Of a stretch of DNA of 64,000 nucleotides, positions 28,708 through 30,752 are shown one piece after another (position 1 is the first letter of the stretch; the number at the start of each line of letters is the position of its first letter). This stretch comes from Secundilactobacillus angelensis (GTDB lineage: Bacteria; Bacillota; Bacilli; Lactobacillales; Lactobacillaceae), in the NCBI RefSeq assembly GCF_012641075.1, contig NZ_JAAXLJ010000002.1, forward strand, positions 124,001 through 188,000, in the 5' to 3' direction. A model generated the notes under the pieces. That model saw only the letters and a list, made by a program, of their open reading frames with translations. It was not told the origin of the DNA and did not search any database. Position numbers and translations under genes: made by a program.

Positions 28708-29097
28708 TTAGTCTCCTAAATAGTGATAATTATAATCCATGCCTTGCTTATACAACTGATAGGAGGCCTCAGTTTCATCCGCAAAGATCACCGAAATGGC
28801 AGGTGTTCCCCATGATGAATAACCCCAAAAAACGGTGTCATCATAGTCGTAACTGTCATTAGGTTTACGGTAAAATCCCCGTGTACGGTCCCAGACCGTG
28901 CCATGAGTCCGTATCCAGTCCTCTGCGATGCCGGCTTTGACTTCATCCAGCCGTTCGTCGTTATCTAAGATCAGCTGTCGCAACTGATCCCAGTCAATCT
29001 GCCAATCATGCTGCTTGGGCCGGGGCTTCCCCGGTTGATAAACCGTTGAAGATTCAATAACGTTTAATTCAATCGGGACCAGGTCTTGAAAACGCAT
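28708..29097 (-). CDS. Unknown 129-residue Trp/Tyr-rich protein
   Basis: I do not recognise this protein. It is soluble and acidic, without cysteines, and unusually rich in Trp and Tyr, with a dense aromatic stretch around residues 70-105 (TRGFYRKPNDSYDYDD, then FWGYSSWGTP). The open frame begins at 29106, but AAGGAG lies 8 bases before the ATG at 29097. It precedes mvaS on the same strand with a 25-base gap, which suggests a common message but not a common function. Confidence 0.8.
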   Translation of the reverse strand: MRFQDLVPIELNVIESSTVYQPGKPRPKQHDWQIDWDQLRQLILDNDERLDEVKAGIAEDWIRTHGTVWDRTRGFYRKPNDSYDYDDTVFWGYSSWGTPAISVIFADETEASYQLYKQGMDYNYHYLGD

Positions 29098-29261
29098 TTG
29101 AATCACTCCTTATAATTAAATTCACTAATTACTGCTTCTGCTTTTCATTTATTCCCATACCATGCTATCATAGTATTAACCGCTTACCAAGCAGTGTCTT
29201 CACAACGAACGGCTGTTACAAAGAAACGCAAACTAATTTTATCTAAGATGGGGTGTTGAGA

Positions 29262-29528
29262 TTGGTAAGTACTACAATTAAGGTCGTTGCATCAGATGGA
29301 TTAACAGGCGATGTTGTCAATCAACTGACCAATGAATTATCAAAATATCAATTTAAAATCATGCTTAAGTATCAGGGAACCACCACGATTGCCACTAGTT
29401 CACTTGGCGTCATGAGTTTAGGCGTCCCCAGTGGTGCTAATATAGAATTGAGTGTTGATGGTACCACTGATCAATTGGAAAAAGTTATTCAAACTTTGAT
29501 AGATAAACAGCTGGTTGCCAAAATATAA
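29262..29528 (+). CDS. HPr-like protein without His15 (Crh-like)
   Basis: From the TTG at 29262 the product is 88 residues, the length of HPr, and aligns with Bacillus HPr without gaps. Gly13, Gly49, Met51 and the LGVMSLGV segment after Ser46 are in register. The phosphotransfer His15 is Thr and the following Arg17 is Asp, so it should not carry phosphate for the PTS. The regulatory Ser46 position is kept. That combination is the hallmark of Crh, a catabolite-control cofactor known from bacilli, where residue 15 is Gln. GGGGTG lies before the start. It is monocistronic, and the PTS itself is not nearby. Family membership is my alignment by eye; the role is inference. Confidence 0.8.
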   Translation: MVSTTIKVVASDGLTGDVVNQLTNELSKYQFKIMLKYQGTTTIATSSLGVMSLGVPSGANIELSVDGTTDQLEKVIQTLIDKQLVAKI

Positions 29529-29648
29529 CCTCCAATCATTAACCGATTGCCGATGAAGCAGTCGGTTAATTTAATAAAAAATAAATTTTATCCGAGTTAT
29601 ACTATTACTACAACCATTACAACGAAAATGTTTAAGGGGATTTTATTA

Positions 29649-30752
29649 ATGCAATTATCAAAACAATTATTAACTGGGCTGGTTACAGCTGGTGCCGTCT
29701 TTTTTGTCGGCGCACATAGCGCCAGTGCCGCTCTTAGTCCTAACAGTTCACAGCCACGAACTGATATGGTCGACTTATCCAGTTGGCAGTCCAATCTGGG
29801 GGCCAGCGATTACCAAAAAATGCACGATGCTGGGGTTAAAGCGGTGGCTATCAAAGCTACTGAAGGCACATCTTATAAGAGTCCCGTTTTGTCTTCACAG
29901 ACACAGAATGCGCAAAACGCAGGCTTGTCCGTTAACTATTACCATTTCGCTCATTTCACCTCCATCGATAGTGCTAAAGCAGAAGCTCAGAACTTTATTA
30001 ACGCTGTTCAGTCTGTCACCAGCTCAAAGAGTATGGTCATGGTAGTAGACTTTGAATCCAGCGAACTTTCAGGCCTATCCAAGAGTCAAAACGACGCTGA
30101 CCTTGCAGCCTTCGACAGTGTCTTAAACGCAGCTGGATACAATAAAACTGACTTATACACAATGGCCAGCTGGGTTGGCAGCAAAATTGATACCAACGAT
30201 AGTAATAAGGGCTGGATCGCACAGTGGCCTTCAAACCCAACCGGCACTGAGTATCCTTCTGCTAACGCATGGCAATGGGCTTCCGACTATCGCTTCAATG
30301 GTGAGTCTCAGAACCTAGACGTCAGCCAGCTAAATAACGATTTCTACGTTAATGGTGATGCCAACACTGCAGCGCACACCAGTTCAAGCAGTTCAACACC
30401 AAAAACGACTCTGGTTAAAGTGCCAGCGCCAGCGCCAACTTCGACTTCCAGCTCAACTTCTAACTACTCGGCTAGTCGCTCAAATTCAGTTAAGTTAGTT
30501 TGGCGGGGTTCAATGCATCGCCACGCTTATTGGACACTTTCTGGTGCCCGCTACTCAAAGCATTTAGGGATTAAGTATGCTGAGATGAAGAACTTGCCAC
30601 ACACGACCTGGTACACAGATGGTCATGAAAAATTATACCGAAAAGCTTCAAACAACTCGGCAATTTACTACCACGTTAGAAGTGGCAATGGCAAACATGC
30701 CGGATGGATTTGGCGCGGATATCTCCATGCTGGCGTTAATCCAAACGCATAA
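29649..30752 (+). CDS. Secreted GH25 lysozyme with C-terminal repeat domain
   Basis: The 367-residue protein has a signal peptide (residues 1-28, ending AHSASA). A GH25 muramidase domain follows, with the active-site acids in MVDLSSWQ and VVDFES and the QWPSNP / NAWQWASDYRF walls. Next comes a Ser/Thr/Pro linker and a basic, aromatic C-terminal region of about 80 residues that probably binds the cell wall. Enzymes of this family hydrolyse the MurNAc-GlcNAc bond. The open frame begins 34 codons upstream, but AAGGGG 9 bases before the ATG at 29649 and the signal peptide fix this start. Confidence 0.92.
   Translation: MQLSKQLLTGLVTAGAVFFVGAHSASAALSPNSSQPRTDMVDLSSWQSNLGASDYQKMHDAGVKAVAIKATEGTSYKSPVLSSQTQNAQNAGLSVNYYHFAHFTSIDSAKAEAQNFINAVQSVTSSKSMVMVVDFESSELSGLSKSQNDADLAAFDSVLNAAGYNKTDLYTMASWVGSKIDTNDSNKGWIAQWPSNPTGTEYPSANAWQWASDYRFNGESQNLDVSQLNNDFYVNGDANTAAHTSSSSSTPKTTLVKVPAPAPTSTSSSTSNYSASRSNSVKLVWRGSMHRHAYWTLSGARYSKHLGIKYAEMKNLPHTTWYTDGHEKLYRKASNNSAIYYHVRSGNGKHAGWIWRGYLHAGVNPNA

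Follow-up and report, generated by a model that had tools for sequence, protein, structure and literature searches.

A Secundilactobacillus HPr paralog with Thr15 and Ser46 as a possible regulatory protein outside sugar transport

The window analyzed here, a 64,000-nucleotide stretch of the Secundilactobacillus angelensis genome, contains an HPr-like gene in addition to ptsH that is a real, conserved and working gene restricted to the genus Secundilactobacillus. Its 88-residue product (MVSTTIKVVASDGLTGDVVNQLTNELSKYQFKIMLKYQGTTTIATSSLGVMSLGVPSGANIELSVDGTTDQLEKVIQTLIDKQLVAKI) has lost the phosphocarrier residue His15 and retains Ser46. We propose a regulatory role without transport for this genus-specific HPr paralog, in which Ser46 would serve as a switch acting via a partner of its own rather than via CcpA; judging from the sequences, we assign this reading a probability of about 0.48. 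Catabolite control in Firmicutes is centred on HPr kinase and Ser46, and to our knowledge little has been described about them beyond HPr itself outside Bacillus-like species. A strictly conserved HPr paralog with lost transport and a rebuilt contact face would show a signalling hub duplicating and gaining a new target, here in plant-associated lactic acid bacteria that are used in fermented feed and beverages.

The original prediction of an HPr paralog of 88 residues agreed in reading frame and position with our analysis (Table 1). The product matched PF00381 with 41.7 bits (cut-off 23, E = 1.2e-10) and HPr chains of the PDB at E = 7e-10. The NCBIfam HPr models returned E-values of 1e-11 to 3e-11 and stayed below their cut-offs, TIGR01003 only just (43.3 versus 47.9 bits) and PRK13780 clearly (44.6 versus 110 bits), so that standard annotation may leave the protein as an unnamed HPr-family member or miss it. 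Structure prediction had been named beforehand as a way to refute the assignment. AlphaFold on the alignment of 13 orthologous sequences gave a model with the HPr order of elements (mean pLDDT 86.9, pTM 0.74) and a first helix at residues 16–26. When this model was searched with Foldseek, the top match was HPr from the HPr kinase complex (1kkl, TM 0.84, rmsd 1.8); HPr in 1rzr, its complex with CcpA, reached TM 0.82 and Crh ranked lower. By sequence and model the product is an HPr-family protein with a predicted HPr fold. The alignment to HPr, thought to be gapless from residue 1 onwards, is indeed ungapped over about residues 1–66, but phmmer introduces a gap of one residue near position 67.

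Table 1. Position of the paralog gene, its elements and its neighbors in the window
Feature	Position	Strand	Basis
HPr paralog gene, 88 codons and TAA, TTG start	29262..29528	+	translation, PF00381, 13 intact orthologs, dN/dS
RBS GGGGTG (GAGGTG in most orthologs), 6 nt 5' of the TTG/GTG start	29250..29255	+	position kept in 13/13 upstream sequences
Possible sigma-70 promoter TTTTCA-18-TATCAT with extended -10 (TGc), tentative	29142..29171	+	promoter scan
Codons 15–17, Thr-Gly-Asp in place of the HPr active-site His-Ala-Arg	29304..29312	+	ortholog alignment
Codon of Thr15, ACA	29304-29306	+
Codons 19–26, VNQLTNEL, first helix, invariant in the paralogs and unlike HPr	29316..29339	+	alignment and model
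Codons 46–56, SSLGVMSLGVP, including Ser46 (HPr kinase target position in HPr)	29397..29429	+	invariant 13/13
Codon of Ser46, AGT	29397-29399	+
Conserved 132-aa protein adjoining mvaS, no Pfam match	28708-29106	-
Secreted GH25 lysozyme-like protein 3' of the paralog	29547-30752	+

Intact and syntenic copies of the paralog were found in 13 of 15 Secundilactobacillus species. Named records carrying it comprise Secundilactobacillus yichangensis, pentosiphilus, mixtipabuli, silagei, odoratitofui, hailunensis, silagincola, folii, paracollinoides, similis, collinoides and kimchicus. The two species that lack it are those with the smallest genomes (1.9 and 2.1 Mb), and the gene is absent from their mvaS locus where the contig allows inspection. 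The order lexA - mvaS - (132-aa gene) - paralog is common to most species and recognisable in all 13. The reading frame is open in every copy, and pairwise dN/dS values of 0.04–0.13 among the orthologs indicate strong purifying selection. At conserved residues the variation is synonymous only: Thr15 is encoded by three codons, Ser46 by two and Ser47 by both serine codon classes. Within the family Lactobacillaceae (398 genomes, E<=1e-9) the paralog was detected in one of 40 genera and not in the other 39 sampled; likewise only one of 80 genera carried it in the sample of the order (395 genomes, E<=1e-11). A pattern scan across 84,980 species, which needs near-exact blocks of 8–9 residues and would miss distant relatives, returned only Secundilactobacillus. 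We also considered an origin from phages or plasmids and rejected it, as no close match was present there, only ordinary HPr at 29–37% identity.

The start codon is TTG in 11 of the 13 orthologs and GTG in two, whereas ATG, the start of the ptsH genes compared, does not occur. In the upstream regions of all 13 species GAGGTG or GGGGTG lies exactly 6 nt from the start codon, and this conserved spacing together with the conserved TTG/GTG supports the TTG start of the window copy. Since non-ATG starts are used throughout, in contrast to ptsH, output of the paralog might lie below the level of HPr; this is a weak suggestion, and a low level would, again weakly, suit a protein dedicated to regulation better than a bulk carrier or a decoy. 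The promoter scan upstream of the gene gave no more matches than shuffled DNA, and a TGCTATCATAGTA block at the possible promoter is kept in the 7 closest species. No cre site with at most one mismatch to TGWAANCGNTNWCA was detected near the paralog, no RNA element was found upstream of it in Rfam, and no intrinsic terminator was found 3' of it. As possible operon partners we considered mvaS, which is divergent, and the 132-aa and downstream GH25 genes; none of them is consistently linked across species, and the paralog appears to be monocistronic. These neighbors offer no functional link either. The 132-aa gene is present in most Secundilactobacillus loci. The GH25 gene has the orientation of the paralog, without a detected terminator between the two, and adjoins it in about two thirds of the species.

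We next turn to the residues that distinguish the paralog from HPr. Replacement of His15 by Thr and of Arg17 by Asp, as originally predicted, can be read from the translation and extends to the orthologs: Thr15 and Gly16 are invariant and residue 17 is Asp or Glu in all 13, in place of the His15 and Arg17 of a PTS phosphocarrier. Enzyme I phosphorylates histidine, and therefore phosphocarrier function is excluded by chemistry. Retention of Ser46 and of an intact GVMSLGV block was likewise borne out when conservation was checked across the 13 orthologs. GVMSLGV is a typical motif of HPr in Gram-positive bacteria, and residues 46–55 are the best-kept and most HPr-like part of the protein. By contrast, Arg17, Pro18, Lys45, Ile47 and Met48 are replaced in every ortholog, with a charge reversal at position 17 and with Thr/Asn45, Ser47 and Leu48 now flanking Ser46. 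As a proxy for the contact face we used the 30 positions listed for docking of HPr to Enzyme I (PMC3724859). Among the 13 orthologs 20 of these 30 positions are invariant compared to 13 of 57 elsewhere (Fisher p = 1.4e-4), the list being derived from an Enzyme I docking model and not from a complex with CcpA or HPr kinase. Only 13 of the 30 are identical to the HPr of the same genome, most of them within residues 49–55. A face that is largely invariant and yet differs from HPr points to selection for something different, although part of this conservation may serve folding rather than binding.

Apart from the paralog, the genome contains a single HPr, an ordinary ptsH on contig C96 (MEKRNFRITAEAGIHARPATLL...NLKSIMGVMSLGVG) with intact His15, Arg17 and Ser46; the search for a genuine ptsH that had been suggested thus yielded one copy, separate from the paralog. 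Both proteins share the fold, the length, an ungapped alignment up to about residue 66, Ser46 and GVMSLGV, but they are only 25% identical over 88 positions. In contrast to its own HPr, the paralog has His15 and the five residues named above replaced, begins with a non-ATG codon and lies outside the clpE-ptsH locus. Genes for HPr kinase (hprK) and Enzyme I (ptsI) are present in all 15 Secundilactobacillus species and ccpA in 14, the species without a ccpA match being represented by a 91%-complete assembly. The 14 genomes have one CcpA each, highly conserved where aligned. This single CcpA must serve HPr, and there is no obvious second version for the paralog. No ptsI follows ptsH at the ptsH locus, and we considered whether the genome lacks Enzyme I; this was ruled out by a ptsI elsewhere, accompanied by ascorbate-type EII genes. 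It ends an operon resembling ascorbate-type EIIA-EIIB-EIIC on contig C46 (locus L106, 5435-9390). In 7 of the 15 species ptsH and ptsI are located on different contigs.

The original prediction compared the protein to Crh and saw in it a possible CcpA cofactor. Crh of Bacillus and Geobacillus relatives and the paralog are alike in being HPr paralogs without the phosphocarrier His15 and with Ser46, and a simple Crh rule based on these two positions applies to the paralog. This part of the comparison stands, but the likeness does not reach the remaining contact residues. Arg17, Lys45, Ile47 and Met48, which contact partners in HPr and Crh, are all changed; together with Pro18 they are kept in Crh of B. 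subtilis, whose sequence was verified in the PDB, and none of the five remains in the paralog. Identity to the HPr of Secundilactobacillus angelensis is 47% for Crh, whereas the paralog is no closer to Crh (23%) than to HPr. In the tree, proposed as a further check, the 13 paralogs are joined in a single clade (100/100) whose stem measures 2.45 changes per site. This clade lies apart from HPr and from Crh, the latter being placed elsewhere on a long branch whose own position is unsure. The second known function of Crh is inhibition of the methylglyoxal synthase MgsA (PMC13130090, PMC9631020). We found no mgsA in any of the 15 Secundilactobacillus genomes, with control genomes positive, so that this function is impossible here.

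Could the Ser46-phosphorylated paralog still join HPr as co-effector of CcpA in catabolite repression? Loss of His15 and retention of Ser46 in all orthologs, the intact GVMSLGV block, the presence of single hprK and ccpA genes and the low-expression start codons would suit such a role, which Crh, another protein with Ser46 but without His15, also plays together with CcpA (PMC9631020). We nevertheless consider it unlikely. HPr residues His15 and Arg17 take part in CcpA signalling according to the title of Horstmann et al. 2007 (cited in PMC4591507), and the five changes, including the charge reversal at position 17, speak against the cofactor proposal, as do the separate position in the tree, the lack of MgsA and the fact that the same CcpA, highly conserved across the genus where aligned, serves ordinary HPr. 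Arg17 of HPr matters for its binding to CcpA. The label Crh is right for the logic of positions 15 and 46 and probably wrong for CcpA. A different possibility is that the paralog acts outside phosphorylation; Ser46 would then cap a helix, and the protein would be a scaffold or a partner that binds constitutively. Ser46 is also found in HPr of bacteria without HPr kinase, such as E. coli, and its presence alone is therefore no proof of phosphorylation; the altered neighbors of Ser46 and the very long stem branch point in the same direction. However, this explanation leaves the strict invariance of residues 46–55 unaccounted for, with GVMSLGV kept while most of the rest diverged, and it too seems improbable to us. 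Finally, the paralog might be a decoy or brake that binds HPr kinase, Enzyme I or EIIA without passing on phosphate and thereby modulates HPr. The HPr fold and the helix facing HPr kinase are shared, and genes for Enzyme I and ascorbate-type EII proteins are available in the genome. Yet an acidic residue has taken the place of Arg17, whose salt bridge with Enzyme I is conserved (PMC3724859), and the high amounts needed to compete with HPr are hard to reconcile with TTG/GTG starts kept throughout the orthologs; we regard a decoy as very unlikely.

For a non-transporting regulatory paralog with a partner of its own we envisage the following mechanism. Without His15 the protein could not take phosphate from Enzyme I. 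HPr kinase/phosphorylase would still read the 46–55 block and phosphorylate Ser46 at high glycolytic flux; we infer this recognition from the conservation of that block and its GVMSLGV motif, and the paralog is probably still a Ser46 substrate of the kinase. As Lys45, Ile47 and Met48 beside the phosphosite are changed, HPr kinase may on the other hand no longer accept it. A dedicated partner would recognise the altered face formed by Thr15-Gly16-Asp/Glu17, Asn20-Gln21-Asn24 and Ser46-Ser47-Leu48, and the output would not run through CcpA by the binding mode of HPr and Crh. By analogy GapA, to which both HPr-Ser46-P and Crh bind in B. subtilis (PMC12445079), is one candidate partner. The more specific idea of a genus-specific third output of HPr kinase, in which the docking face was rebuilt and a partner unconnected with CcpA, MgsA and the PTS would come under the control of Ser46 phosphorylation, is possible but rather doubtful. 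The invariant residues of the paralog are immediate targets for pull-downs and point mutants.

The original prediction stated that no such protein was known to it from lactobacilli. Our full-text literature search for Crh, HPr-like proteins and HPr paralogs in lactobacilli and Secundilactobacillus, with most subscription journals outside its coverage, found no description of the paralog. However, Crh look-alikes do occur in another Lactobacillaceae genus (g14, four loci). Like the window paralog, these are second HPr copies beside ptsH with Met or Thr at position 15 and a retained Ser46, but they keep Arg17, Ile47 and Met48 and fall inside the HPr/Crh part of the tree. On sequence grounds they are better Crh look-alikes than the Secundilactobacillus paralog, and lactobacilli are therefore not without Crh-like proteins. 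NPr of Proteobacteria is likewise a regulatory HPr paralog additional to HPr; unlike the paralog it keeps a phosphorylatable His, and Foldseek placed it much farther away (5t17, E = 0.25). In addition we noticed a very diverged HPr-like ORF of 87–93 residues lacking both His15 and Ser46 (MKTIGFPLY...DGPDEAQLAAAIHQQL) with a marginal PF00381 score, at six loci of genus g16 and one of Secundilactobacillus (G008). In both loci examined (G096 and G008) a potD-like gene and an ORF of 111–116 aa are found nearby.
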